DNA from: Calditrichales bacterium MX18-03
GTDB lineage: Bacteria; Bacillota; Clostridia; Lutisporales; Lutisporaceae
NCBI GenBank assembly: GCA_021083345.1
Contig: JAJGRE010000002.1
Span: 186,001 to 250,000, forward strand
Reading direction: 5' to 3'
Length of the DNA stretch: 64,000 nt
Notes under the pieces: generated by a model
What the model was told of the DNA's origin: nothing
Seen by the model: only the letters and a program-made list of their open reading frames with translations
The model's database searches: none
Program-made: the position numbers and the translations under genes
Shown here: positions 20,236-34,539 of the stretch, in pieces
Layout: each line of letters opens with the position of its first letter
Numbering within the stretch: the first letter of the stretch is position 1

Positions 20236-21390
20236 ATGTTTAGGACCTATCTAACAATCCGGATCTGGCTGGTTTTGCTGTTAATGGCAGCCAATACGCA
20301 ATCCCCTACGGCACCTGGAGGGCTAATCGCCTCCAACCGCACCCAAACGTCAATTTCATTAAGTTGGTCAGCAGCTTACGATGATACCGGTGTTAAAGGC
20401 TATCAGGTATTTAGGGACGGCAAGAAAATCATATCGACGTCAAAATTAAACTATACCAACAGTGATCTGGTACCGGGGAGAAAGTATGCCTATGCCGTTA
20501 AAGCCTATGATGCAGCCGGAAACCTGTCTGAAAGCAGCACCGTTTTATATGCTGCAACCATCAGCGATTATCAAAGCCCTTCACCTCCAAGCGGCCTCTC
20601 AGCAGCTGCTTCATCCTTCACTTCCATAACGCTTGCCTGGGAAGCATCCACGGATAATGTGAGCGTCAAAAACTATGAGGTTTTCCGAAACGGCCAAAAG
20701 ACTGGTTCCACCTCTGACACGCAGTATGAATGCAAACGGCTTATACCCGGCACCGTTTATACATTCCATGTAAAGGCTTATGACAAAGCGGGCAATGCTT
20801 CAGCCGAAAGCAGTCGGATTTCCGCCCGAACCGTGCCTGACCTTCAGGCCCCCACAACCCCCACCGGGCTGAAAGCTGCCTCCGTTACAGTAGCGGAGGC
20901 AAACCTGATATGGACACCCTCTTCTGACAACGTAAAGGTTAAGGGATATGAGATTTTCCGGGATGGCGCAAAGATAGGAACAACCACCAAAACAAGCTAT
21001 TGCAGCAAGAGCCTGGCTCCGGGAAAGAGCTACGAATATGCGGTGAGAGCATCCGATGCATCGGGAAACCTGTCAAAAAACAGTAGTACACTGCGAATCA
21101 GTACACTGAAGGATTCCCTGTCACCCACCGCGCCTGCGGAGCTTAAAATAAGCAAGGCCAGCGGGTCCTCCGTCTCTCTTGCCTGGACAGCCTCTACCGA
21201 TAATGCAAAAGTCTCAGGCTATCAGATTTATTGCAACGGCATCGTCATCGCCACTGCAGCCAGAACCACCCGCACCGTCAAAAGCCCCTTCGGCCTGGGT
21301 ATTGACCTTTACTGGGTAAAGGCTTATGATCAGGCCGGCAACCTGTCGGGCAGCAGCAATAAGGTAACGGCTGTCACGCTGACCCGATAA
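20236..21390 (+). CDS. Secreted protein of four fibronectin type III domains
   Basis: The 384-residue protein has a short export signal (residues 1-20, LTIRIWLVLLLMAA) and then four tandem FN3 repeats of about 93 residues at roughly 23-110, 114-206, 207-299 and 300-384. Each starts with a P-T-x-P-x-x-L phrase, has the central VKGYQVFRDG-like strand and ends YAVKAYDAAGNLS-like. Such repeats are usually spacers in extracellular glycoside hydrolases; here no catalytic, cell-wall-anchor or carbohydrate-binding domain is present, so the protein is all spacer or an adhesin. AAGGAG precedes the ATG; own promoter and terminator. Confidence 0.9.
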   Translation: MFRTYLTIRIWLVLLLMAANTQSPTAPGGLIASNRTQTSISLSWSAAYDDTGVKGYQVFRDGKKIISTSKLNYTNSDLVPGRKYAYAVKAYDAAGNLSESSTVLYAATISDYQSPSPPSGLSAAASSFTSITLAWEASTDNVSVKNYEVFRNGQKTGSTSDTQYECKRLIPGTVYTFHVKAYDKAGNASAESSRISARTVPDLQAPTTPTGLKAASVTVAEANLIWTPSSDNVKVKGYEIFRDGAKIGTTTKTSYCSKSLAPGKSYEYAVRASDASGNLSKNSSTLRISTLKDSLSPTAPAELKISKASGSSVSLAWTASTDNAKVSGYQIYCNGIVIATAARTTRTVKSPFGLGIDLYWVKAYDQAGNLSGSSNKVTAVTLTR

Positions 21391-21396
21391 AAAAGG

Positions 21397-21429
21397 CAGG
21401 CACTATTTACATCAAGTAAACAGTGCCTG
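21397..21429. terminator. Bidirectional intrinsic terminator between the FN3 gene and the methyltransferase operon
   Basis: A 14-bp stem CAGGCACTATTTAC/GTAAACAGTGCCTG with one mismatch and a 5-base loop; it is followed by TTTCTTC on the plus strand and by TTTTT on the minus strand. On the minus strand its stem contains the end of the last operon gene. Confidence 0.85.
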
Positions 21430-22845
21430 TTTCTTCTTTAATAGCTCTTTGCCAATGCCGAGCTCTACTTCAAGATATCTGCGCAGCTCCAGCAGCAATT
21501 CCTCATCCAGCTTAGGCCTTTTATAGGCTTCCAGCATTTCTTCCATCTGCTTTTGAATATTGAGCTCATACAGGCTGAGCGAGTCCTGGTTGTTTTCCAG
21601 TACTTTATTTATCCCTACCTGTGAATGCCAGGCTGTCTTCCGGCAGTTTTCATAGGTATGCTCGGACGTAAGATACTCTCCGCCAATTCCGATACGGCTT
21701 ATTTCATCGACCGGTATAGCTGTATCTGTTACATCCAGCCTTCCCATGAAGCGCTTGGCCATGCTGATTACTTCCAAATCGGATATGAACTTTTCGAAGG
21801 ACATGGACGCATAGCTGTCCAATATCCCGGCGCTGTGCAGTACGAAGCTGGTTTTTTCAGCCAGTGTGCTCATCATGCTCATCATAGACTCATAGCCGCT
21901 TTGAGCTCCAACGAACTTTGCATCCGTCAATGTACCGCCGCAGCGGTTAGGCAAGTTATAAGCCTTGGCCAAACGAGCCGAATAAACCATTTGCAATGCA
22001 TTTAGAGGACTGCCGATGGATACGGCACCAGAGCGCATATTCATCGTTGTGGGGTTCAGACCGTAAATTACCGGGATACCCGGACAAAGCATCTGTGCTG
22101 CTGCGATAGCTGCCAAAGCCTCCGCATTACCTACTGCAAGGTTGCCTGCTATGGTAACCGGTCCGGTGGCACCTGCCATGGGCCCGGGCGCAATGATGAC
22201 AGGCTGTCTGTATCTGGCACAAGCGACAAGCGTGTCGGCGCCAATATTTCCAAGGTGCAGCGGGCTTGCGGTATTGATCAGTGTCAGTAAATGGGGCTTT
22301 TCTCGGAATGCTTCATCCCCGCCATACAATACAGCTGCCATATTCATGCACAGGTCTACTTTCTTTTCTAAGCCTGGTATCCCCATCAAGCACTTATCCG
22401 AATGTATCATTGCAGCAAGCATCATCATGGGCATGCCGATTTCCGGCTGCAAATCCGAAGGCTGAACCAGTATCCCCCCGTTAATGCTGAAAGTATCGCT
22501 TTGATGCACCAGCTTTGCAAACTTGATATAGTCGGCATAGTCGGCACTGCGCCTTGACCCATCCCTGTCTATAATGGAGGTACAGCCGTAACCGGCTGCA
22601 AACCAGATATTTTCTCTGTTTATCAGCATATTGTGTTTAGGATTTCTGGCGTATAAGGTAAATGACTTGGGTGCTTGTGCAATACTCGACATGATCTGGT
22701 CTTCAGTGAAAAAGGCAATGCTGCCTTCAACCTTTACGCCGTTTTTCCTGAGCACTTTGACAATCTCCTGCCTGTGTACGTTGAATCCGGTTTCCCACAG
22801 AATCCGTATGGAAGCCTCATGTATCCTTTTCAATTCATATTCCAT
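21412..22845 (-). CDS. MttB-superfamily methyltransferase 1 (non-pyrrolysine)
   Basis: The 477-residue protein matches the trimethylamine methyltransferase (MttB/COG5598) superfamily over its whole length: GPVTIAGNLAVGNAEALAAI, GGTLTDAKFVGAQSGYESM and IGGEYLTSEHTYENC. The frame has no internal amber codon, so it belongs to the non-pyrrolysine branch, whose studied members demethylate glycine betaine, proline betaine or carnitine and pass the methyl group to a corrinoid protein. The start is an ATG 9 bases after GGAGG. It is the last gene of a ten-gene operon, 15 bases after the ABC ATPase livF. No corrinoid partner is nearby. Confidence 0.88.
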   Translation of the reverse strand: MEYELKRIHEASIRILWETGFNVHRQEIVKVLRKNGVKVEGSIAFFTEDQIMSSIAQAPKSFTLYARNPKHNMLINRENIWFAAGYGCTSIIDRDGSRRSADYADYIKFAKLVHQSDTFSINGGILVQPSDLQPEIGMPMMMLAAMIHSDKCLMGIPGLEKKVDLCMNMAAVLYGGDEAFREKPHLLTLINTASPLHLGNIGADTLVACARYRQPVIIAPGPMAGATGPVTIAGNLAVGNAEALAAIAAAQMLCPGIPVIYGLNPTTMNMRSGAVSIGSPLNALQMVYSARLAKAYNLPNRCGGTLTDAKFVGAQSGYESMMSMMSTLAEKTSFVLHSAGILDSYASMSFEKFISDLEVISMAKRFMGRLDVTDTAIPVDEISRIGIGGEYLTSEHTYENCRKTAWHSQVGINKVLENNQDSLSLYELNIQKQMEEMLEAYKRPKLDEELLLELRRYLEVELGIGKELLKKKQALFT

Positions 22846-22860
22846 CGGAAACACCCTCCG

Positions 22861-23568
22861 TTATGCAATACCTAGGTACATTTTGCGCACATGATCGTCT
22901 TTGGCCAATTCCTCGCTGGATCCTTCCATCGCGATCCTGCCTTGCTCCATAACATACGCACGATCTGCTACGGATAGGGTGGTGTTGACATTTTGCTCAA
23001 CGATAACCACGGTAACTTTTTCTTCCCTGAGTTTTTTGACAGCATCAAAAACAACCAGTACATTCTTGGGAGAAAGTCCCATCGAAGGCTCATCCAGCAT
23101 GACCATTTTGGGTTTGGACATAAGCCCTCGGCCTATTGCCAGCATCTGCCGCTCGCCGCCGCTCATGGTCCCTGCAAGCTGCTTGCTGCGCTCCGCCAGT
23201 CTGGGAAAGAGCTCCAAAACATAGTCCAGGTTCCTTTTCACCTCTGCATTGTCCTTCAAGATATAAGCACCCATCAGAAGGTTTTCTCGAACCGTCATGG
23301 CTGTGAACAGGTTGCGTTCCTCCGGAATAAAGGAAAGCCCCAACTTAACCAGCTGACAGGTCGGCAGCCCGGTTATGTCCTGTCCGTTGAATAGGATCTT
23401 ACCGCTCTTAGGGGTGAGAACGCCTGCAATGGTTTTCAACGTCGTCGTCTTACCGGCTCCGTTAAGACCAAGTATAGCGACAACTTCCCCTTGGTGAATT
23501 TTCAGCGAGACATCCCAAACCACCTGGAGATATCCGTATCCTACATTCAGATTCTGTAGCTCCAACAT
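22861..23568 (-). CDS. livF: LivF-type ABC transporter ATPase
   Basis: The 235-residue protein has Walker A GLNGAGKTTTLKT, signature MSGGERQMLAIGRGL, Walker B MVMLDEPSMGLSP and the LivF-type end VADRAYVMEQGRIAMEG. It powers one half of a branched-chain-amino-acid-type (HAAT) importer together with LivG. GAGGTGG precedes the ATG. In this operon the cargo is probably the substrate of the methyltransferases and opine dehydrogenase rather than leucine or valine. Confidence 0.92.
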   Translation of the reverse strand: MLELQNLNVGYGYLQVVWDVSLKIHQGEVVAILGLNGAGKTTTLKTIAGVLTPKSGKILFNGQDITGLPTCQLVKLGLSFIPEERNLFTAMTVRENLLMGAYILKDNAEVKRNLDYVLELFPRLAERSKQLAGTMSGGERQMLAIGRGLMSKPKMVMLDEPSMGLSPKNVLVVFDAVKKLREEKVTVVIVEQNVNTTLSVADRAYVMEQGRIAMEGSSEELAKDDHVRKMYLGIA

Positions 23569-23601
23569 GAGAATACCACCTCTTCCTGATTTACTGCATT
23601 A

Positions 23602-24339
23602 TTATAAGTTATAGTTTTCGCCCAGATAAGCTTTGATCACATCTTCATGCTCGGTTATCTCCATAGGTGTACCTTCTGCAAGCTTTTCACCGAAATAAAG
23701 CACGGCTATATGGTCGCAAACACTCATAATCAACTTCATCAAGTGCTCAACAATAATAATGGTGATGCCCATATCGTCACGCATCTTGCGGATAAGGACG
23801 GTAATATCGTTAAGCTCGCCGGGCGTCAGTCCCGCAGCAACCTCATCCAATAGAAGCAGCTTGCAATTGGTTGATAAGGCACGGGCCATTTCCAGCCTTT
23901 TCAGCTGCATGGTGTTCAATTCATATGCAAAGGTGTCCGGTGAAAGCGGGAACCCCACGAATTCCAAGTATTCCAAGGCCTTCTTCCTCGCTTCGTGACG
24001 GCTCATTTTTCCTCCAAAGATACCGCCTACCAGTACATTTTCCAATGCTGTCATATTGGGGAAGGACCTGACAATCTGATAGGTTCTTGCCATGCCTTCG
24101 TGGCACACTTTAAAGGGCTTGATGCCTGTTACATCTTTTCCGTTAAAAAAGACCTTTCCCTCCTCTGGGGTGTAAGTTCCGGAAATGATGTTCAGGAATG
24201 TGGTTTTTCCTGCTCCATTTGGTCCGATTAAACCATATATCTGTCCTTGCTCAACTTTAATACTGACATTATTTACTGCTTTTAAACCGCCAAAGCGTTT
24301 GCAAGCATTTTGAGTTTCAAGAAGTACCAACACCTTCAC
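23602..24339 (-). CDS. livG: LivG-type ABC transporter ATPase
   Basis: The 245-residue protein has Walker A GPNGAGKTTFLN, the family's Q-loop phrase GMARTYQIVRSFPNMTALEN, Walker B LLLLDEVAAGLTP and the LivG end DHIAVLYFGEKLAEG. The usual LSGGQ-like signature segment reads LNTMQLKRLEMARAL, that is, the glycines are replaced (family LivG has L-S-Y-G-x-Q-R-R-L-E). This weak signature is worth noting. The start is probably a GTG near 24339 (GTG or the TTG/GTG two codons on); the exact start is uncertain. Confidence 0.88.
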   Translation of the reverse strand: MKVLVLLETQNACKRFGGLKAVNNVSIKVEQGQIYGLIGPNGAGKTTFLNIISGTYTPEEGKVFFNGKDVTGIKPFKVCHEGMARTYQIVRSFPNMTALENVLVGGIFGGKMSRHEARKKALEYLEFVGFPLSPDTFAYELNTMQLKRLEMARALSTNCKLLLLDEVAAGLTPGELNDITVLIRKMRDDMGITIIIVEHLMKLIMSVCDHIAVLYFGEKLAEGTPMEITEHEDVIKAYLGENYNL

Positions 24340-24424
24340 CCGCTTTTCTCATTACTTTTCAGTACGATACAGTGCGACAGACATTGTTCCATCGCACTGT
24401 ATCCTGTTTTACCTAAACACGTGG

Positions 24425-25768
24425 TTACTTCGCAAAGTCAGGTATCTTAATATCCTGATCCTTCCAGGCATCCGGCCAAACCATCTTACCTTGGCCTTCG
24501 AAGTACTGGATGACAGGGAATATGTAGTGATCCTGATCCACGACAGGATCCGGGAAGGATTCGGGCGTGTACTTGTATTCCTGGTGTATGATACCGCCGG
24601 TATAGGAGACCTTGCCCGGAATAACATGCTCTTCTGCAACCTTCCTGAAGCTTTCGGTGCTCAAGTCACCATATTGTTCAAGCGTCAGGTTCATAACCTT
24701 AATAAAGAAATTCGCCCAGTCATAGCCCATACCGGCTGTAGAAGGACCAGGCTCATAGCCGTACTTTTTGGTGTAATCGTCTTTGAACTTCTTTGCTTCG
24801 GCCGTCGTCCACTGCGGAATCTGGTCAAGCACGTAATCCGAAGCAGTACCGCAAAGGCCGTACCACTCGCCGACCCAGCCGAGTCCGTCACAGATGATCA
24901 GGCTCTTGAGGCCGACTTCTCTTGTCTGCTTGATAAAAGCTGCAACAGATGAAGGGTCGGACATTGTACCTGCTATAAGGGAAACATCCTCCTTCTTAAG
25001 CTTGGTGAGCAAAGGATAAAAGTCGGTTTCTCCCAGGCCGACCCATGCCTCATCTGCAATTGTCCAGCCCGCATCCTTGAACTGCTTGCCGATAGCAGCG
25101 CCGAAGTTTCTGCCCCAGTCATTGTCGACGCCGTAAATGGCACACTTCATGTTTCTTGGCGTCCATGCCTTGCTGTCAATTGCTTTTGTAACTGTTTCCA
25201 CATAGGCCTGTGTCAGCAGTGACGATGTAGGCCATGCCTTTCCTACCCAGTACTTGTACTTTTCATAATCGCCTTTGATTTTTTCATTGATGGTATCCCC
25301 GGCACCAAAAGAGAAGAAATGTGGTATCTGGTACTTGGCGGATATATCCATGCACGATACGGAAACCCAGCTGTGCCAATCCATGAAGCCGACATCGATC
25401 TTATCCTTGACGATTGCCTGCTCATAGGCGCGGGCAGCCTTTTCGGCGTCGGATTCACTGTCAATCCAGACAAACTCGATATTGTAGTCCCCTACTTTGT
25501 AATTGATTGCTTCAAAAGCCATCAAGATGCCGTTTTTGATTTCTTCACCTGAGCGGGCGGCAGGACCAGTGTAAGGACCGATAACACCAACCTTGCAAAC
25601 CTTCGGCGTCTCGGCTGCTTCCGGAGCTTTATCACCCTCTGCCGCAGCAGTGGCTGATTTGGCTGCATCATTCCCGCTGCAGCCGGAAAGCATCATCCCT
25701 GCCATGGACAACAGCAACACCAGTACCAGGATTGACTTGGCCATTTTTTGTTTGGATAACTTTCTCAT
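24425..25768 (-). CDS. Substrate-binding lipoprotein of a HAAT-type ABC importer
   Basis: The 447-residue protein has a lipoprotein signal (LVLVLLLSMAGMMLSGCSG, lipid-modified Cys in LSGC), a short Ala-rich linker and a type I periplasmic-binding fold (VCKVGVIGPYTGPAARSGEE, AFEAINYKVGDYNIEFVWID). This is the LivK/amide-urea-binding class that captures the ligand outside the membrane. It is longer than true LivK (about 365), in the range of proteins for amides or other non-amino-acid ligands. GGGAGG precedes the ATG. It is the fifth cistron of the transport set. Confidence 0.9.
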   Translation of the reverse strand: MRKLSKQKMAKSILVLVLLLSMAGMMLSGCSGNDAAKSATAAAEGDKAPEAAETPKVCKVGVIGPYTGPAARSGEEIKNGILMAFEAINYKVGDYNIEFVWIDSESDAEKAARAYEQAIVKDKIDVGFMDWHSWVSVSCMDISAKYQIPHFFSFGAGDTINEKIKGDYEKYKYWVGKAWPTSSLLTQAYVETVTKAIDSKAWTPRNMKCAIYGVDNDWGRNFGAAIGKQFKDAGWTIADEAWVGLGETDFYPLLTKLKKEDVSLIAGTMSDPSSVAAFIKQTREVGLKSLIICDGLGWVGEWYGLCGTASDYVLDQIPQWTTAEAKKFKDDYTKKYGYEPGPSTAGMGYDWANFFIKVMNLTLEQYGDLSTESFRKVAEEHVIPGKVSYTGGIIHQEYKYTPESFPDPVVDQDHYIFPVIQYFEGQGKMVWPDAWKDQDIKIPDFAK

Positions 25769-25817
25769 TTCTTTCCCTCCCATTTTTATTTTATTTGGGC
25801 AAACGTTACTGCTAAAA

Positions 25818-26849
25818 TCAAATTGCACCGTTTTTAGAGAAAATCTTCCTGAAAGGCTTCCATATCTTATTGCTTCTACGCAGGAAAGCAGTCACAGCCT
25901 CCCACAGTCCCACCAGTCCCTTGGGATAAAATATCATAACTGCAATCATAAGCGCACCGTACAAGACAAGCCTGAGCTCCATCAGGCCTTTGGAGTACTC
26001 CATCAAGGGTACCATAATCATGGCGCACGCCAAACCGCCCCATATGGTTCCCCTGCCGCCGATATAGGAAATGGCCATGATTTCAACCGTTTTGGCAGTT
26101 CCCAATGCTTGCGGTGTGAGTATGCCGATGAAATGGGCATAGAACCCGCCGATCAAACCGGCAATGGCACAGGAAATCGTAAAGTTAACCACCTTGTATT
26201 TTGTCGGATTCACACCGGATGACGAAGCTGCCTCAATGTCTTGGCCAATTGCCCTGAATGCCATTCCCATGTTTGATTTTGTGATGCGCATCAGAACAAA
26301 GTAAACCAGCAGCATTATGGCTAGCATGACATAATAGTACGGTGCATTTTGCACTGTATCGAAAAGCGCAGGTACATTGAGACCGGCACTGCCCTTTGTG
26401 AGCGAAACCCAATTATAGGTTACAGCCATCATCGCCAACGCAACAAACCACGTCATGCAGGAAGCGAATATACCGCCCAGGCGGATGGTCAGCAGTCCCA
26501 AGCCAAACCCGACGATAGCCGACATGACGCCTCCGCAGAGCATCCCGACCCATGGCGATACGCCGAGCCTTATTGCAACGATGGCACTGGTATAGGCACC
26601 AAGACCCCAGAAGGCGCAAAAACCGAAATTGCAAATGTTGATATAGCCTGACGTAAAATCAAATGCCATAGCCAACGCACCGTACATGAGTGTTGCGACC
26701 AACAGCCGCGTGACGAACTCATCCCTGAATATGAAGGGCAGCACACTGATCGTCAGGAGTGCAGCAGCACCTAATGGGGTAAGCCCGAACTTGCCGATCA
26801 GCTCCAGCATGCCGGCTTTTTTCTCTGTTGACAGGACTTTTTCTTCCAT
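25818..26849 (-). CDS. livM: LivM-type ABC permease
   Basis: The 343-residue membrane protein carries the LivM hallmarks: ALAMAFDFTSGYINICNFGF, LGAYTSAIVA, then KSNMGMAFRAIGQDIEAAS in the coupling loop and AQALGTAKTVEI-like C-terminal helices. It forms the channel with LivH. The start MEEKVLS follows GGGAGGT by 7 bases, 13 codons downstream of the first ATG. It is 49 bases upstream of the binding-protein gene. Confidence 0.9.
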   Translation of the reverse strand: MEEKVLSTEKKAGMLELIGKFGLTPLGAAALLTISVLPFIFRDEFVTRLLVATLMYGALAMAFDFTSGYINICNFGFCAFWGLGAYTSAIVAIRLGVSPWVGMLCGGVMSAIVGFGLGLLTIRLGGIFASCMTWFVALAMMAVTYNWVSLTKGSAGLNVPALFDTVQNAPYYYVMLAIMLLVYFVLMRITKSNMGMAFRAIGQDIEAASSSGVNPTKYKVVNFTISCAIAGLIGGFYAHFIGILTPQALGTAKTVEIMAISYIGGRGTIWGGLACAMIMVPLMEYSKGLMELRLVLYGALMIAVMIFYPKGLVGLWEAVTAFLRRSNKIWKPFRKIFSKNGAI

Positions 26850-26874
26850 CACTAGCACCTCCCGCTTCTTTGTA

Positions 26875-27765
26875 TTATTCTGCAGCACTTTTTACGCCTT
26901 TTTTGCCGAAGATTCCGTTAGGCTTAACCAGCAATATAACGATAATAACGGCAAGACTGATGACATCCTGCCAACCTGCTCCGAATTGGAAATAAGAGAT
27001 GGTTTCCAGGAGCCCGACGATCAGTCCGCCGACGATGCTGGCGCCAAGATTGCCCATACCTACCAGAATCAGAACAAACCAGGATTTATAAAGCGGGTTG
27101 ATCCCCATCACCGGAAAAGCGGGTGTCAACGGCAATAGACAAGCACCTGCCAGCGCAGCCAGCATGCAGCTCAAACCGAAGGTCAGCGTGTGGATCATGT
27201 TAAGATTGACACCGACCAGGCTTGCACCGGTTTCATCCATTGATACCGAGCGGATCGCCCGTCCCAGTTTGGTTTTGTTGAGGAACAAAACAAAAATAGC
27301 AATTGCAATGCATGCCACAGCAAAAGCGAATATACGGTCATTGGGTATTTGCATTGTACCCACCGAGATTGTCCCGCCAAAGTAGGATGTTACGCCGCGA
27401 TATCTGGAACCCCACATCAGCTTTGCACCGTTTTGCAATATGATGGATACACCGAGTGTCAAAAGAAAGGTATTCATCAGCCAGTTCTTTTTGCTCCGCT
27501 TGCGCAGCGGATAAAATAACCCTCTTTCTACGATTACGCCGACGGCAAAAGCTAAGAGTGCCGCAATCAGTACACTGGGGATAACACCCAGTTTGAAAGT
27601 AGTGAATGAAAAATACGCGAAATAAGCGCCCAGCATGTAAAACTCACCATGAGCAAAGTTCGCTATGTTCATGACGCCGAACACCAACGAAAGGCCTAGT
27701 GCCATCAACGCATAAATCCCGCCGCGCAGCACCGCCGTCACAAGTATATCTCCAAACTCCCCCAT
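26875..27765 (-). CDS. livH: LivH-type ABC permease
   Basis: The 296-residue membrane protein shows the LivH signatures GIYALMALGLSLVFGVMNIANFAHGEF (given in parts: residues about 16-42), TKLGRAIRSVSMDETGASLV in the coupling loop and FVLILVGMGNLGASIVGGLI. The start MGEFGDIL follows GGAGGGGAGG with an 8-base gap; an earlier in-frame ATG would overlap the upstream methyltransferase gene. It forms the translocation pore with LivM. Confidence 0.9.
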   Translation of the reverse strand: MGEFGDILVTAVLRGGIYALMALGLSLVFGVMNIANFAHGEFYMLGAYFAYFSFTTFKLGVIPSVLIAALLAFAVGVIVERGLFYPLRKRSKKNWLMNTFLLTLGVSIILQNGAKLMWGSRYRGVTSYFGGTISVGTMQIPNDRIFAFAVACIAIAIFVLFLNKTKLGRAIRSVSMDETGASLVGVNLNMIHTLTFGLSCMLAALAGACLLPLTPAFPVMGINPLYKSWFVLILVGMGNLGASIVGGLIVGLLETISYFQFGAGWQDVISLAVIIVILLVKPNGIFGKKGVKSAAE

Positions 27766-27794
27766 TGTTTCTGCCTCCCCTCCATTCGATTTTT

Positions 27795-29183
27795 TCACAG
27801 GTATGCCTCAATAATCTTTTTTTGCCGTTGCGTCAGTTCGGGTTCAACATACGCATTCAGTCTTCGAATGCATTCTCCAGCAGCCCTGTCTTCAAGGCCA
27901 AGCGAACCCTTCGACTCCCATGCCTCATAGCCCTCACGGGAAAACAGGGCAGGTGTATGGATCTCCGAACGGTAGTATTGGACGGTATGCTCCTCTGCAA
28001 GGAATTGCCCGCCCGGACCCAGTCTTTCTATGGTCTCCAGACCCAGGCATTCCGGGTCGATCCGGTAGCCCCTGTGCATCCGCATAACCGATTCGATTGT
28101 AACTTCATCAATAATGAATTTTTCCAAGCACACCGTATTGAAGGATTCCAGAATCCCACAGCTCTGAAGGATGAAATCCACACCTGACATGATAGCCGGA
28201 AGCATTGTCATGGCTGACTCAATTCCGGCCTGCATGTCGGGCAGCTTTGAATCGGTCAGCGAGCCGCCTGACCTGCACGGCAGCTTGTAGTACTTACTGA
28301 GCGCCGATATGGTGGCTGTAATAAGCCCGGTTTCAGGTGAACCGATAGCGGGCGCCACATACCGCAGATCGCAAGCCGTGGAGGTGCTGCCATAGATCAC
28401 CGGGAGCCCGGGAGCAATCAGCTGGGCCAGCACGATTCCAGCCAGCACCTCGGCATTGTCGATGACAATCGTCCCGGCAATCGTCGCAGGGCTTGTCGCT
28501 CCCGGCTGTGAGCAGGCAGCAAACATCAGCGGCTGCCTGTGCAATGCATAGTCAAAGATGTGATCCAGCATATGTCCGTCATAGACCAATGGAGAAATGG
28601 GGCTGATTATACCGATCAAGCGGTATTCATCCAGTGAGCCGTAAAAGTCACGGACAAGCTCAAGGCACTTTTGGGAAAGGCCGCTGCCCATGGTGATCCC
28701 GATCAGCGGCTTCTTGGAATGCTTGAGAGCGGAGGCAACCTGAAAAAGTTTACGTTTGTTCTCAGGCATATCCTGAGGCTCTACAACAATATAGTTGGCA
28801 ACTTTCAGCACTCGGCTGGTCTCAGTCAGTTTGAGCAAGTTGGTAAAGTCTTCGGTGGTCGCCAGGCGCTTGATGCCCGCTTGTCTGACATAAACCGGTC
28901 CTGAAGCTGAAGCAAATGCAGGCGTACCGCCGCCCACTCGCACATCGTTTTCCCGTTCACGCCCGCTAAGAAAAAAGCTTTCAGGCGCGCATGCAAGGGC
29001 TTTATCCAACAGAGCAGAATCAATAAAGACCATATTACCGTTGACTCTGGCTCCGTGCTGCTTGAAAACCTCTATCGCCCTCTCGCTTTGGAAGCGCACA
29101 CCCACAGTGGATAGTACCTTAAGGGTGGCCTGGTGCAATGCACGCAACTCTTCCTCTTTAAGAAATCGTCCTTTTAATTCCAT
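27795..29183 (-). CDS. MttB-superfamily methyltransferase 2 (non-pyrrolysine)
   Basis: The 462-residue protein keeps the superfamily motifs SPATIAGTIVIDNAEVLAGI, GGSLTDSKLPDMQAGIESAM and GPGGQFLAEEHTVQYY, with no internal stop codon. It differs strongly from the other two copies, so the three are diverged paralogues rather than recent duplicates and may act on different methylated substrates or steps. The start MELKGRFL follows GAAAGG with an 11-base gap; an open frame of 32 codons upstream overlaps the racemase gene and is not used. It lies directly before livH. Confidence 0.87.
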   Translation of the reverse strand: MELKGRFLKEEELRALHQATLKVLSTVGVRFQSERAIEVFKQHGARVNGNMVFIDSALLDKALACAPESFFLSGRERENDVRVGGGTPAFASASGPVYVRQAGIKRLATTEDFTNLLKLTETSRVLKVANYIVVEPQDMPENKRKLFQVASALKHSKKPLIGITMGSGLSQKCLELVRDFYGSLDEYRLIGIISPISPLVYDGHMLDHIFDYALHRQPLMFAACSQPGATSPATIAGTIVIDNAEVLAGIVLAQLIAPGLPVIYGSTSTACDLRYVAPAIGSPETGLITATISALSKYYKLPCRSGGSLTDSKLPDMQAGIESAMTMLPAIMSGVDFILQSCGILESFNTVCLEKFIIDEVTIESVMRMHRGYRIDPECLGLETIERLGPGGQFLAEEHTVQYYRSEIHTPALFSREGYEAWESKGSLGLEDRAAGECIRRLNAYVEPELTQRQKKIIEAYL

Positions 29184-29212
29184 GCTCTTTTCAACCTTTC
29201 CCGTCCAGTCAG

Positions 29213-30004
29213 CTAGACGTGGCCGTAATAGTCTCGATGTGCCACTACCGAGTAGGCATAATCCAGCAATGTACCCCAACTGAACACCGGGAGATCGACT
29301 TCACGCTGAATCGCTCTGGCAAAGGGCTGCATTCCGGTGCATTCCAGCATGATCGCACCGATATCGGGATTCTTCTCCACAAAAGCCTTGCAGCAGTCCA
29401 CCAGCTGCGCCTCTGCTTTTTCAAAGCTTGCCTGCGGCACCTCGGGCCGTTTGAAGGGATTCCAAAGATTGTCGAATTCCGTTACCCCATATTCATCTTG
29501 AGAACCGGCAATAACGTAGTTCGAAGCCAGATCAATCCCGACATTGATCAAGTGCTGTTCGCTCAGAAACTGCTTCTGTGCACAGACAATACCGACTTTT
29601 TTCTTGGGACCTATTATTTGCTGAATGAACGGTACCTGCAGGAGACTTGACATAAAAACCGGGATGTCCACTGCATTTGCGACATCATTCTGAAAGAATG
29701 CAAAATAACCGCACTCCGCTGCGATTGCCCGGCAGCCCATCCGCTCAAGGTGCTTTGCAGCGGCTATGACCGCATCTCTGCAGAGTACAGGGTTCTTATC
29801 ATAAACAAGCGTCTTGTTGGTTACACCCTCAGCAATCTGATATTGCATCGGATAGGGAAAGGCGCTGGCATTCCTGACATCTCCGGGAAATCCCGGGTAA
29901 GCGTCGTTCAAGAGAATAACCCCTATTCCCATCCCATAGCAAACATGGTTCTTTCGCGCTTTGATATGGTTAATGCCCATATCTCGGTTCTGCCACATGA
30001 TCAT
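29213..30004 (-). CDS. Asp/Glu racemase-superfamily protein
   Basis: The 263-residue protein has the two cysteines expected of the cofactor-free aspartate/glutamate/hydantoin racemase superfamily, in AIAAECGYFAFF (about residue 98) and IMLECTGMQPFARAI (about 219). Members racemise amino acids or hydantoins, isomerise maleate or cleave related acids. AGGAGG precedes the ATG. Positioned between two MttB-type genes in a catabolic operon, it may invert the stereocentre of an amino acid released by the dehydrogenase or demethylase. The exact reaction is unknown. Confidence 0.75.
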   Translation of the reverse strand: MIMWQNRDMGINHIKARKNHVCYGMGIGVILLNDAYPGFPGDVRNASAFPYPMQYQIAEGVTNKTLVYDKNPVLCRDAVIAAAKHLERMGCRAIAAECGYFAFFQNDVANAVDIPVFMSSLLQVPFIQQIIGPKKKVGIVCAQKQFLSEQHLINVGIDLASNYVIAGSQDEYGVTEFDNLWNPFKRPEVPQASFEKAEAQLVDCCKAFVEKNPDIGAIMLECTGMQPFARAIQREVDLPVFSWGTLLDYAYSVVAHRDYYGHV

Positions 30005-30040
30005 GATGCTGCTTCCTCCTTACTTCTTATACTGCCAGGT

Positions 30041-31456
30041 CTAAAATTTACTCTCCCATCTCTTTAGACACTGTAAAGAGTCTTTGTCCAGAGCAGGGAC
30101 CTCATAGTTGTCAACAATATCCCGAAGCTTTGCCTTTACCAGCTCTGACACCTGCGATTGGTCTTCACTCACCATCTTGCGGCTAAAATATCGAGGGTAC
30201 CAGACGCTCTTGAAGTTATCCAGTGTATGCTCCTCGCACAAATAAGACGATCCCGGTCCCACCGCTTCGATTACATCCATGGCAAAGTCAGATTCATCTG
30301 TGGAAATGCCTGCGGCATAATGTTTCAGTCCCTCAATGACTTCATCTGCCAGAACAACCAGCTCCGGCGATACACTGTTGCAATGGTCCATGATACCCAC
30401 GTCATGTATGATATTGGCTTTCGACAACAAGGTGGAAAATACCTCATAGGTCATTTCAAACATGGACTGTTCATCTATGACCTTGGCATCGGTACAGCCT
30501 GCAGTACCGTAGAAGGGTAATCCATACCAGGCAACCAGGTCGGCCATGGCTGCTACATTCAGATGGAACTCGGGTGCTGCATACGAGCCTACTGTCGTCT
30601 TCATGTCCATGATAGACGGCATAGCACCATATATAAAGGGAGTACCTTCCGATACCAACTGCGCCAGTACAAGACCGCCCAACGCTTCGGCGTTGCACTG
30701 TGCCAGTGTGCCCGCAATGGACATGGGTGACGTTCCGCCCATCATGCAGAAGGGCATATAGACAAACGGAATACGGTTCTCTGCTGAAATATAAATCTTC
30801 TCCGTTGACTCCAATGGATGCTTCAGCGGCGGAATCGGTTCACAGTAATTGAAGATGAACGGCTTTTCCTGCAGCTTTGGCAATCCGCCTGCGAAATCTG
30901 CTGCGATATCGATGCAATCCTGTAAAGACCGGATATCGTTTGAGGAAAAGTTAATGGTTTTATCAAAATTTTTCAGCGTTTCAATGAATGTGGTCTGGGT
31001 CTGTATTTTGGGATCGACATCGGCTGACATGCCTACTGATAATACGAAATAAATATTTTTCAATGCACTGGCTACTTTGCACATGGTTTTTGTGTCTGCC
31101 TTCTTAAACGGGCGCACCCTGTTTTCAAAGGGATCCACATATTGCAGCTGGTCTGCGTGTGTGCCGAAATATACCTGGTTTCTGCTGTCTATCAGCATGG
31201 AGGGAGAGCCATCCCTGTTATAGAGCTGAAGTTTCTTCGGTGCACAGTCCAGCGCACGTTCCACCATTTTTCGGCTGATATGCACCCGCCCGTCTCTATC
31301 CACCGTTGCCCCAGCATCCTTCAGCAGCTTAATTGAACGTTCCCCTGCGTACTGCATCCCTACCTTCTCCATCAGGTACAGGGTTTTTTCGTGTATCTTC
31401 TCGATCTGCTGCTGATTCAGCACCGAGAAGCTGATGTTTCTTTTTATATCCGACAT
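30041..31456 (-). CDS. MttB-superfamily methyltransferase 3 (non-pyrrolysine)
   Basis: The 471-residue protein has SPMSIAGTLAQCNAEALGGL, GTAGCTDAKVIDEQSMFEM and VGPGSSYLCEEHTLDNF, the same blocks as copies 1 and 2, again without an amber codon. It is the most divergent of the three (for example FGTHADQLQYVDPFENRVRP near residue 95). It follows the opine dehydrogenase gene and precedes the racemase-like gene, with 36-42-base gaps. Its substrate is presumably a methylated amine brought in by the operon's ABC importer. Confidence 0.87.
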   Translation of the reverse strand: MSDIKRNISFSVLNQQQIEKIHEKTLYLMEKVGMQYAGERSIKLLKDAGATVDRDGRVHISRKMVERALDCAPKKLQLYNRDGSPSMLIDSRNQVYFGTHADQLQYVDPFENRVRPFKKADTKTMCKVASALKNIYFVLSVGMSADVDPKIQTQTTFIETLKNFDKTINFSSNDIRSLQDCIDIAADFAGGLPKLQEKPFIFNYCEPIPPLKHPLESTEKIYISAENRIPFVYMPFCMMGGTSPMSIAGTLAQCNAEALGGLVLAQLVSEGTPFIYGAMPSIMDMKTTVGSYAAPEFHLNVAAMADLVAWYGLPFYGTAGCTDAKVIDEQSMFEMTYEVFSTLLSKANIIHDVGIMDHCNSVSPELVVLADEVIEGLKHYAAGISTDESDFAMDVIEAVGPGSSYLCEEHTLDNFKSVWYPRYFSRKMVSEDQSQVSELVKAKLRDIVDNYEVPALDKDSLQCLKRWESKF

Positions 31457-31498: not shown

Positions 31499-32716
31499 CT
31501 ACGGCAATACGCCTTCACGCAGATAGGCATTCAGCTGATCCTTTGTCATTCCGCCGATTCCCAGTGAATCCAGCGTATATGCGTTCTTTGTCAAGTCGCG
31601 TTTAAGGATTGCACAGGCAAGGTGGATCATCGCATCAACGACGGGCGTTTCCACACCGTATGCTTTGCCAAGCTCATGGTAGACATGGCAGCCTACCGGG
31701 ATGTCCTCCGTGATGTACCGGTTCTCCATATTGAAGGGACCAGTGCCGAACTGAATGGGATCCTGTGAATCAAAAGGAATCATATAGTCATGGCCCATAT
31801 ACTCCTGTCCCAGCACGTTCTCACGGGAGAAGAAGTCATTTCGCTGGTAGGGCTGTATTCCAACACCGATAGCATCGGCCAGAGCATGCTCTTCCAGATA
31901 GAAGCTGTACTGGACCTCGGATATGGAGGGGCAATAAGCATGGGAGTAGATGGAAAACTTATTTTTATCTTCACCGAATATACGTCCGAAGTTCTCCATG
32001 ACACCGACACCCAATATAGCACCGGGGCAGTGCAGCACAGGGTTGACATTTGAGAAACCGGTATCCAGTACCGTATCGCCGGCAACCGCTCCATCGCCAA
32101 AGGTTACCGCATCCATGGACGGCAGATATTTCGAGCTTTCTATGAACGCTTCGGTATCGCAGGCCGGAAGAGCCGCACCCCGTAGGGTGATTGCCCGGTA
32201 GTAGACTCGGATCTTGTGCGTTATAACGCCGCCATGGATATCCACACGGCTGCCGTAGGTGGAGCTGGACCAGCCGCCGACTATGATGTTTTTTGTGCAG
32301 CCGGCTTCCCGCATCATTTTGCGAAGGATAAGAGAACCGTAATTATCCGGGAAAATATGAACCACCTGCCCATCCTCCAGAGCAGGAATCAGCTTCTCAA
32401 AAAACGGCCTGTGTCCAAAGGTGGGTGTGGCAACAACGATAAGGCCTGCACCTTTTACGGCAGCTGCTACATCCGTGGTAACCATCTCCATCTTCGCAAA
32501 CCCTTCACGCTCAAAGCCGTACAGGTTAATCTGATCCCCATAGAACTTGATGCCTACACGTTCAATATTCATCAGTGTTTTAGCGGCAAAAGGCGGTAAA
32601 TCGCAAATTCTGACTTTGGCACCACCCAGTGCACAATCACCCGCAATTGCTTTGCCGACTGCCCCGGCGCCTAATACTGCTATGGGTTTTTCCTTCAAAT
32701 AGCTCATGTCCTTCAT
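31499..32716 (-). CDS. Octopine/nopaline dehydrogenase-family oxidoreductase
   Basis: The 405-residue protein begins with an NAD(P)-binding Rossmann motif (IAVLGAGAVGKAIAGDCALG) and continues with the opine dehydrogenase fold; the phrase VVATPTFGHRPFFEKLIPAL and a conserved His in the second domain (IYSHAYCPSISEVQYSFYLE, containing S-E-x-x-Y) fit the octopine/nopaline dehydrogenase family. Such enzymes reversibly join an amino acid and a 2-oxo acid through a secondary amine; in a catabolic operon the oxidative direction is more likely. It is the first gene after the sigma-54 promoter. Start at 32716 after AAGGATGG is preferred. Confidence 0.85.
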   Translation of the reverse strand: MKDMSYLKEKPIAVLGAGAVGKAIAGDCALGGAKVRICDLPPFAAKTLMNIERVGIKFYGDQINLYGFEREGFAKMEMVTTDVAAAVKGAGLIVVATPTFGHRPFFEKLIPALEDGQVVHIFPDNYGSLILRKMMREAGCTKNIIVGGWSSSTYGSRVDIHGGVITHKIRVYYRAITLRGAALPACDTEAFIESSKYLPSMDAVTFGDGAVAGDTVLDTGFSNVNPVLHCPGAILGVGVMENFGRIFGEDKNKFSIYSHAYCPSISEVQYSFYLEEHALADAIGVGIQPYQRNDFFSRENVLGQEYMGHDYMIPFDSQDPIQFGTGPFNMENRYITEDIPVGCHVYHELGKAYGVETPVVDAMIHLACAILKRDLTKNAYTLDSLGIGGMTKDQLNAYLREGVLP

Positions 32717-32766: not shown

Positions 32767-32782
32767 TGCATAATCCATGCCA
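32767..32782 (-). promoter_or_regulatory. Sigma-54 (-24/-12) promoter of the methyltransferase operon
   Basis: On the minus strand TGGCATGGATTATGCA has the invariant GG and GC exactly 10 bases apart, close to the RpoN consensus TGGCAC-N5-TTGCA. Transcription would start about 40 bases before the opine dehydrogenase start codon. A sigma-54 activator gene is divergent from it. Confidence 0.8.
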
Positions 32783-32898: not shown

Positions 32899-32930
32899 GT
32901 AAAAATTTCTTGCGCGCAAGAAATTTTTAC
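32899..32930. promoter_or_regulatory. 32-bp perfect palindrome, probable enhancer (UAS) for the sigma-54 activator
   Basis: Each arm is GTAAAAATTTCTTGCG or its exact reverse complement, meeting without a spacer. The centre is about 145 bases upstream of the -12 element, the usual distance for bacterial enhancer-binding proteins, and 155-185 bases upstream of the activator gene. Confidence 0.7.
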
Positions 32931-33008: not shown

Positions 33009-33084
33009 GTAAAAGGATACACCATCGCATTTAAAGAGCTTCAGTCACTTGGTATCGGTATTAACTTTGAAAGGATGTGTTTTT

Positions 33085-34539
33085 ATGAAGGACAACCTCA
33101 ACTTTTCCTTGCCTGAGGCGGCACTCGAACTGCCGTTTAAATGCATTGAAGTATTGGAGGATATTTGCATCCACGTTATTAATGCCAATAAACGCACCAT
33201 CTATTATTCAAAGGGCTGTGAGGCGATTGAGCAGTATAAAAAAGAGGACATAATAGGCAAAGACATCCGTGATGTCTACATGCTGAACGAAGAAAGCGAT
33301 CTGGACGATGAGAACAGTATCCTGCTGAAGGTTTTGAAAACACAGAAGCCTATCAAGGATAAAACCATGAAATACATTACAAAAAAAGGCAAGATCGTCA
33401 ATGTCATAAGCAGTGCCTACCCTTTATTCATCAACGATAAGCTGGCAGGGTCTATTGCAGTTTTCAGAGATGTGACACAAATTATGGAAATGTCCTCTAC
33501 GATTGAAAAGCTCCAAAACGTTATTTTTTTACAGAACAAAATGAACATAAAAAATGGTACACAATACCATTTCCATGATATTATAGGCTCCAGCAACGTT
33601 ATCAAAAGGACCGTCAGTATGGCGAAAAAAATGTCAAGCAGCAGCAGCCCCATCATCATTGTCGGCGAGACAGGAACCGGTAAGGAATTGTTTGCGCAAA
33701 GCATACACAACAATAGTCCCGCTTCCGCAGGCCCGTTTGTTGCCATCAACTGCAGCGCCATTCCTGAAACACTGCTTGAGAGCATTCTGTTCGGTACGAC
33801 GAAAGGTGCTTATACAGGGGCCGCAGATAAGCCCGGTCTTTTCGAGGAAGCGGAAAACGGCACATTGTTTCTGGATGAACTGAATGCCATGAACCTTTCC
33901 TTGCAGTCAAAACTGCTCAGGGCGCTTGAAACAAAAGCCATACGAAGGGTAGGAAGCAACCATGAGATTTCTTTCAACGCGCGCATTATCAGTGCAACAA
34001 ACATAAACCCCACGGAAGCCATTGAGAAGAAGCAGTTAAGAGAGGATCTTTATTACAGGCTGGCTGTACTTACGCTGGAAATACCGACCTTACGTTCAAG
34101 GCTTGAAGATATAGATGACCTTGTGATGGGCTTTATTGAAGCCAATCACAAGGTCATGGGGAAAAATATACTTGGTATCACAGATAAGGCGCTTAAAGCC
34201 TTAAAAAGCTATAATTGGCCGGGGAATGTCCGGCAATTGAAGCATGCCATCGACTATTCCATGAATGTTGCCGAAATCAATGATGTCTTGATCGATTTGT
34301 CTCATATTCCCAATTACATTACTGAAATAATCAAGAGCAACGAGATTCAACATATATACAGCAAAAAAAACAAAGGCAGCTTGAGAGAAACCCTGGAAGA
34401 AATTGAGAAAACCATCATCATAGAGGAAATAAAGAAAAAAAATGGGAATCTCAGCCAAACCGCCAAAGAGCTTGGCGTATCCAGACAGCATTTGCAGTAT
34501 CGCCTGAAAGCCTTGGATATCGATCATAAAATACGATAG
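33085..34539 (+). CDS. Sigma-54-dependent transcriptional activator (PAS-AAA+-Fis)
   Basis: The 484-residue protein has an N-terminal PAS-type sensory domain (about 12-130, ending SIAVFRDVTQI), an AAA+ sigma-54 interaction domain (about 163-395) with Walker A VGETGTGKE (193-201), the sigma-54 contact loop as GAYTGA (241-246, a tolerated variant of GAFTGA) and Walker B TLFLDEL, and a Fis-type HTH (about 445-484, GNLSQTAKELGVSRQHLQYR). With no receiver domain, it probably senses a ligand or redox state through PAS. AAAGGA precedes the ATG by 9 bases. It is divergent from the ten-gene operon and is its obvious activator. Confidence 0.93.
   Translation: MKDNLNFSLPEAALELPFKCIEVLEDICIHVINANKRTIYYSKGCEAIEQYKKEDIIGKDIRDVYMLNEESDLDDENSILLKVLKTQKPIKDKTMKYITKKGKIVNVISSAYPLFINDKLAGSIAVFRDVTQIMEMSSTIEKLQNVIFLQNKMNIKNGTQYHFHDIIGSSNVIKRTVSMAKKMSSSSSPIIIVGETGTGKELFAQSIHNNSPASAGPFVAINCSAIPETLLESILFGTTKGAYTGAADKPGLFEEAENGTLFLDELNAMNLSLQSKLLRALETKAIRRVGSNHEISFNARIISATNINPTEAIEKKQLREDLYYRLAVLTLEIPTLRSRLEDIDDLVMGFIEANHKVMGKNILGITDKALKALKSYNWPGNVRQLKHAIDYSMNVAEINDVLIDLSHIPNYITEIIKSNEIQHIYSKKNKGSLRETLEEIEKTIIIEEIKKKNGNLSQTAKELGVSRQHLQYRLKALDIDHKIR

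Follow-up and report, generated by a model that had tools for sequence, protein, structure and literature searches.

The stretch of DNA analysed here, hereafter the window, comprises 64,000 nucleotides of the genome of Calditrichales bacterium MX18-03 (G000:C8:186001-250000; contig C8 is JAJGRE010000002.1), an assembly of 4.69 Mb in 15 contigs with a completeness score of 100%. It contains an operon with three genes of the MttB methyltransferase family, which we call MttB-A, MttB-B and MttB-C. Ten co-directional genes run on the minus strand from 32716 to 21412, overlapping or separated by gaps of at most 85 bp. They encode, in this order, an opine-dehydrogenase-like enzyme (OctDH, 31499-32716, 405 aa, PF02317), MttB-A (30041-31456, 471 aa, PF06253 at 260.3 bits), a member of the Asp/Glu/hydantoin racemase superfamily (AspRac, 29213-30004, 263 aa, NCBIfam PRK07475), MttB-B (27795-29183, likely 462 aa), two permeases of an ATP-binding cassette (ABC) transporter, of the LivH type (26875-27798) and the LivM type (25818-26888; both PF02653), the Peripla_BP_6 substrate-binding protein of an ABC transporter (24425-25828, PF13458), ATPases of the LivG type (23602-24339, PF00005 and PF12399) and the LivF type (22861-23568, PF00005), and MttB-C (21412-22854, 480 aa, PF06253 at 375.6 bits). 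The longest open reading frame of MttB-B (27795-29279, PF06253 at 391.5 bits) begins with a TTG at 29279, inside the upstream gene, and the ATG at 29183 is the better start.

A divergent gene on the plus strand (33049-34539) encodes a sigma-54 activator of 496 aa with PAS, AAA+ and Fis helix-turn-helix domains (PF13426, PF00158 and PF02954), and homologues 41-52% identical to it are present at most of the relatives' loci described below. A sigma-54 (-24/-12) promoter, TGGCATGGATTATGCA, lies on the minus strand 66 bp upstream of OctDH (32767-32782), and a perfect 32-bp palindrome, GTAAAAATTTCTTGCGCGCAAGAAATTTTTAC, stands between activator and promoter (32899-32930). The palindrome is the probable binding site of the activator, and its 18-bp core has one exact occurrence in the genome and one 3-mismatch site, on contig C7. 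At the far end, an intrinsic terminator on the minus strand (21397-21429), with a 14-pair stem and a T run, overlaps the stop codon of MttB-C. The ten genes appear to form one transcription unit of the sigma-54 type. The initial annotation of this DNA had also described a single transcription unit, but its coordinates left out the first gene, OctDH.

That annotation had reported three MttB copies in one operon and the absence, from the whole window, of a corrinoid protein and a RamA-type activase. Both observations stand: the three proteins match PF06253 over their full length (260-392 bits, cut-off 25) with pairwise identities of 27%, 27% and 31%, and genome-wide scans with hidden Markov models gave no match to PF02310, PF02607 or PF14574 inside the window. 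A corrinoid or activase gene was searched for in the operon and just beyond it, and none was found; because the terminator sits at the stop codon of MttB-C, the transcript would end without a corrinoid gene. The annotation had offered three explanations, namely a shared corrinoid protein encoded elsewhere, a different methyl acceptor, or an activity other than methyl transfer. Our results indicate that the missing partner is ordinary and that the first explanation is the likely answer, while nothing was found in favour of the second or the third.

The relationships of the three proteins were assessed in two MttB trees of 57-61 proteins, obtained by quick searches with support from the Shimodaira-Hasegawa approximate likelihood ratio test (SH-aLRT) and no bootstrap. 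MttB-A, MttB-B and MttB-C occupy three separate regions of the tree and do not cluster together with the enzymes of any one corrinoid protein. Their low identity and their separate positions indicate that they are old paralogues and not recent duplicates. The MttB-A clade lies on the side of the pyrrolysine-containing (Pyl) MttB proteins, and MttB-A itself is sister to the MttB-A of a Synergistales locus, L041 (SH-aLRT 98-99). Only MttB-B falls within the same broad clade as Eubacterium limosum MtcB, MttB-A and MttB-C being outside it, and none of the three groups closely with MtcB. MttB-C groups with homologues from loci of Synergistales and Desulfosarcinaceae. It branches next to the MtgB clade (84-87% SH-aLRT), the one with 9yce, without being inside it, and MttB-A and MttB-B are far off.

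The AlphaFold model of MttB-A has a predicted local distance difference test score of 92, and its residues 5-471 match 7xcl and 7xcn with a Z of about 52. The match to the MttB subunit of the MttB-MttC complex 7xcn runs from end to end (Z 52.3, 466 residues, root-mean-square deviation 1.9), and the comparison with MtgB gives a Z of 51.4. At the position of Pyl334 in MttB there is a Cys in MttB-A and a Leu in MttB-B and MttB-C, and the TIGR02369 scores (320, 337 and 286 bits) fall below the cut-off of 525. With these residues and open frames, a pyrrolysine or a misread stop at this position is ruled out. In the clade of MttB-A, and likewise in that of MttB-E, a further MttB of this genome, most members carry Cys in place of the pyrrolysine, in the motif GTAGC[TS]DAK. 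We rejected the idea that this Cys is the clade-defining catalytic thiol of MttB-A, since the residue is Thr at the related loci L095 and L096 and Ala at L097. The same data bear on the proposal that at least one of the MttB proteins, most plausibly MttB-A, does not transfer methyl groups and would instead carry out a reaction such as that of a lyase or an isomerase, together with the racemase and the opine dehydrogenase. In its favour, MttB-A is deeply diverged and is always accompanied by a second MttB or by corrinoid machinery that could transfer the methyl groups, and Cys prevails in its clade. However, the modelled fold is that of a full-length MttB and superimposes on a corrinoid-bound complex, the Cys is not invariant, and at L095 and L096 a corrinoid gene immediately follows MttB-A. 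We thus consider a role outside methyl transfer very improbable.

The partners of these enzymes can be seen at the loci of relatives. We compared 18 loci with MttB-A orthologues (the window, L041-L053 and L094-L097). At 11 of them (L041, L045, L047, L048, L049, L050, L052, L053, L095, L096 and L097) the DNA read encodes a corrinoid protein, that of L047 being of a distant type and those of Acetobacterium lying ~7-8 kb away on the opposite strand. Seven loci lack a corrinoid gene, and four of these (L042, L046, L051 and L094) are on short contigs. The Synergistales locus L041 shows the order OctDH (divergent), MttB-A, LivHM, substrate-binding protein, LivGF, MttB-C, corrinoid protein, RamA and MtgA; its genome has three MttB genes, and the corrinoid protein of this operon is the only one that it encodes besides MetH. 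At L095 and L096 the corrinoid gene stands between MttB-A and a second MttB, and at L097, L122 and L124 genes for MttB, corrinoid protein and MtgA occur together, at L122 and L124, which were found through OctDH, beside the OctDH gene. A corrinoid gene at L123 was not counted as a partner, since it is part of a methanol system with MtaB. Given that relatives carry a corrinoid gene, and some also RamA and MtgA, in this operon, what is compact in other genomes appears to be dispersed in that of the window.

A search of the complete genome for MttC/MtgC-type proteins and ramA, which the initial annotation had suggested, returned candidates for all the missing parts. Besides MetH and a sensor-like protein, three MtgC/MttC-type corrinoid proteins with PF02607 and PF02310 domains are encoded: MtxC1 (C8:1156.6k, beside MttB-D and MttB-E), MtxC2 (C8:516.8k) and MtxC3 (C10:64.5k). 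Two RACo/RamA-type activases, RamA2 (C10:52k) and RamA1 (C8:512k), were found in addition to one in the acs operon (C9:369k), and an MtgA-type methyl-tetrahydrofolate (THF):corrinoid methyltransferase at C10:58k (PRK07535, 349 bits). Judged by sequence, the genome has the corrinoid protein, the methyltransferase II (MTII) and the activase of a quaternary amine:THF methyltransferase system. Genes at C9:360-377k, which we take to be those of carbon monoxide dehydrogenase/acetyl-CoA synthase, AcsE-like and AcsV proteins and a methylene-THF reductase-type enzyme, would indicate a Wood-Ljungdahl pathway. Of the seven MttB genes in this genome, only two, MttB-D and MttB-E, lie within 10 kb of a corrinoid gene; MttB-F (C9:387k), which is MtgB-like and stands beside two BCCT transporters, has none within that distance.

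MtxC1 and MtxC3 share 86% identity, and their identity to the corrinoid protein of the L041 operon is 60-63%. Because they are the closest to this protein and the MttB-A proteins of both loci are sisters, MtxC1 and MtxC3 are the predicted methyl acceptors of the window's MttB proteins. The third protein, MtxC2, has the full corrinoid architecture (TIGR02370 at 221.7 bits, cut-off 215.3) and a RamA of its own, RamA1, in its cluster, and could in principle take this role. Yet its identity to the L041 protein is only 42%, its locus has no MtgA-type gene, and its neighbours, two MtaA/UROD-type methyltransferases, are of the MtaA/CmuA type, which makes MtxC2 an unlikely acceptor. Very improbable, too, is an acceptor of another kind, be it the corrinoid domain of the MetH encoded in this genome, free cobalamin or a non-corrinoid molecule. 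MtcB does transfer methyl groups robustly from carnitine to cob(I)alamin in vitro, but its close homologue MtyB cannot methylate free cobalamin (PMC8604678), and relatives provide the same operon with a dedicated corrinoid protein, in the case of L041 the sole one next to MetH.

We consider it probable that MttB-A, MttB-B and MttB-C are corrinoid-dependent quaternary-amine methyltransferases (methyltransferase I, MTI) acting on a corrinoid protein supplied in trans, most likely MtxC1 or MtxC3, which a RamA/RACE activase and an MtgA-type enzyme, also in trans, would serve. The substrate would enter through the Liv transporter and be N-demethylated by the MttB proteins onto MtxC1 or MtxC3, as their family, their fold and the operons of relatives suggest. 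The activase (C10:52k or C8:512k) would maintain the Co(I) state of the corrinoid protein, and the MtgA-type enzyme (C10:58k) would transfer the methyl group to THF and thereby into the Wood-Ljungdahl pathway. The sigma-54 activator, sensing the substrate, would switch on the substrate-specific part only, that is, the transporter, the three MTIs, the racemase and the opine-dehydrogenase-like enzyme. More speculatively, AspRac might invert a stereocentre and OctDH might N-dealkylate the product oxidatively.

Several points weigh against this scheme. We sought a sigma-54 promoter before MtxC3, RamA2 and MtgA and found none that was convincing, so that their co-regulation with the window operon is unsupported. 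MtxC1 shares an operon with two other MttB genes and may be dedicated to them, and the choice between corrinoid proteins rests on one sister locus, L041. Perfect sigma-54 promoters do precede MttB-E and MttB-G. As a test for a regulon shared with the trans partners, the core of the activator's palindrome was also looked for elsewhere in the genome, and its exact sequence occurs only at the window locus.

Some of these remote loci show features of their own. MttB-E, a methionine gamma-lyase-like pyridoxal phosphate (PLP) enzyme, MttB-D and MtxC1 form one operon with a perfect sigma-54 site (L029:14827-19641, C8:1156.2k-1161.0k), and the PLP enzyme between the two MttB genes may point to a substrate of the sulfonium or homoserine type. 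The neighbours of MttB-G (L035:10037-15177, C7:936k-941k) are a BCCT transporter and a divergent histidine ammonia-lyase-like gene that scores slightly below the cut-off for HutH (524.8 bits), and sigma-54 sites lie close to MttB-G and to the transporter; a substrate of the histidine-betaine type is conceivable. A 360-aa protein with both B12-binding domains, encoded beside sensor-kinase-like genes (L036:8900-9982, C7:1495k), is probably a regulator that senses cobalamin or light and not a carrier of methyl groups. Within the window, just past the operon terminator and on the opposite strand, lies a gene for a fibronectin type III protein of 384 aa with four repeats (20236-21390, plus strand).

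The initial annotation implied that MttB proteins without an adjacent partner are odd. This is not borne out by our own genome, where five of the seven MttB genes are in the same situation, nor by the well-studied gut acetogen E. limosum, where MtpB, MtcB and MtyB have a common methyl acceptor, MtqC, whose gene lies apart from theirs and from those of MtqA and RamQ (PMC8604678). The mtgB, mtgC and mtgD genes of R. pomeroyi are likewise dispersed, with widely separated locus numbers (PMC12478193). Using exact matches of published knockout primers (PMC10223405), we located E. limosum mtcB at L112:10276-11736; it is a lone mttB gene, accompanied by an MFS transporter and by a divergent sigma-54 activator that shares 44% identity with the one in the window, and no corrinoid gene is present near it in the 19 kb read. 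E. callanderi has a corrinoid gene within 10 kb for 14 of its 30 MttB genes. The window thus resembles the E. limosum MtpB/MtcB/MtyB-MtqC-MtqA-RamQ system in having several MTIs without an adjoining corrinoid gene and a corrinoid protein, MTII and activase in trans, but it differs in that its three MTIs are gathered in a single operon, where they are joined by an opine-dehydrogenase-like enzyme, a racemase and an ABC transporter of the Liv type. The glycine betaine system MtgB-MtgC-MtgA of Desulfitobacterium hafniense follows the same three-component logic, and MtgA- and MtgC-type proteins are encoded in our genome; however, MttB-C stands outside the MtgB clade proper and the MtgB-like protein here is MttB-F. 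Methanosarcina MttB-MttC, acting on trimethylamine, has the fold of MttB-A and lies on the same side of the tree, whereas the window's proteins have no pyrrolysine and score below the TIGR02369 cut-off.

The company of the MttB genes is itself conserved. OctDH has an Octopine_DH domain (PF02317, 105.4 bits, cut-off 30), and its closest solved structure is that of CENDH (1bg6, E 4.5e-24). It is akin in this to opine dehydrogenases such as CENDH and octopine dehydrogenase, but unlike them it has, in all the relatives sampled from the phylum, a genomic setting of MttB/corrinoid demethylation. In Acetobacterium, Synergistales, Desulfobacteraceae and relatives within the phylum, homologues 66-83% identical to OctDH are encoded next to MttB genes, and copies of AspRac (67-81%) adjoin MttB-A in Acetobacterium, Eubacterium, L051, L094 and L097. 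Among 398 genomes of the phylum, OctDH (homologues counted at E <= 1e-80) was found in nine and MttB-A in five, all five being among the nine; with our own genome excluded, the four genomes with MttB-A all fall within the eight with OctDH (P = 7e-8). OctDH adjoins MttB-A in all five genomes, and in the other four the OctDH locus also holds MttB genes. More distant homologues of OctDH (52-66%), from genomes of the same taxonomic family as that of the window, are present without MttB at L098-L101, two of them beside an aminotransferase and a membrane protein, which suggests that this dehydrogenase family also serves other pathways.

The arrangement varies around this core. L094 has the exact order OctDH, MttB-A, AspRac (81%) and MttB-B (55%), followed by PanB and an OpuC-type betaine transporter, and L051 (Desulfobacteraceae) has PanB, OctDH, MttB-A, two MttB-C-like genes, AspRac and a Liv transporter. 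Transporters are of the BCCT, OpuC or Liv type, and racemases are either AspRac or of the proline-racemase type, the latter with both catalytic-type Cys residues. At L041, large and small aconitase-X-type cis-3-hydroxyproline dehydratase-like genes with an adjoining racemase (L041:4906-6595) lie near the OctDH/MttB-A operon. A dedicated PanB is present at L043, L051, L094-L097 and in Acetobacterium; our genome has a cluster-type PanB in trans (C10:4.3k), 71-75% identical to those of L094-L097, and another PanB adjoining a PanC-like gene. Residues I202 and I212 of Escherichia coli PanB, which we take to alter specificity, are Ile and Leu in the cluster PanBs and are not informative. The cluster-type PanB (L107:2081-5144, C10:2.1k-5.1k) stands beside an aminotransferase gene that has a perfect sigma-54 site and beside a sigma-54 activator sharing 46% identity with that of the window, and this locus is probably a trans part of the same module.

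We found no paper in a literature search for MttB paired with an opine dehydrogenase and a racemase. This module, comprising an opine-dehydrogenase-like enzyme, a cofactor-free racemase, MttB proteins, often PanB, and a betaine-type or Liv transporter, is apparently undescribed. By sequence it recurs in no fewer than three phyla, namely Bacillota, Synergistota and Thermodesulfobacteriota, and cultured Acetobacterium and Eubacterium are among those that carry it. Its predicted substrate is probably a chiral amino-acid betaine, given that BCCT and OpuC transporters imply a quaternary amine, the racemase an alpha carbon and the opine-dehydrogenase fold an N-alkyl amino acid. We tentatively propose, as one possible route, an anaerobic pathway for a chiral alpha-amino-acid betaine in which the MttB proteins would N-demethylate the substrate onto the shared corrinoid protein, the racemase would invert its alpha carbon, and OctDH would cleave the remaining N-alkyl amino acid oxidatively, yielding an alpha-keto acid. 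Many members would also use a dedicated PanB-type enzyme to pass a further one-carbon unit between the keto acid and THF.

Our results show that MttB genes without neighbouring partners are normal where a genome keeps a common set of corrinoid proteins and activases, and that gene adjacency should not serve to doubt the function of an MttB. What remains of interest at this locus is the uncharacterised module and not the missing partner. Once the module is named, its substrate could be sought through growth tests combined with proteomics, the approach that succeeded for MtpB, MtcB and MtyB.

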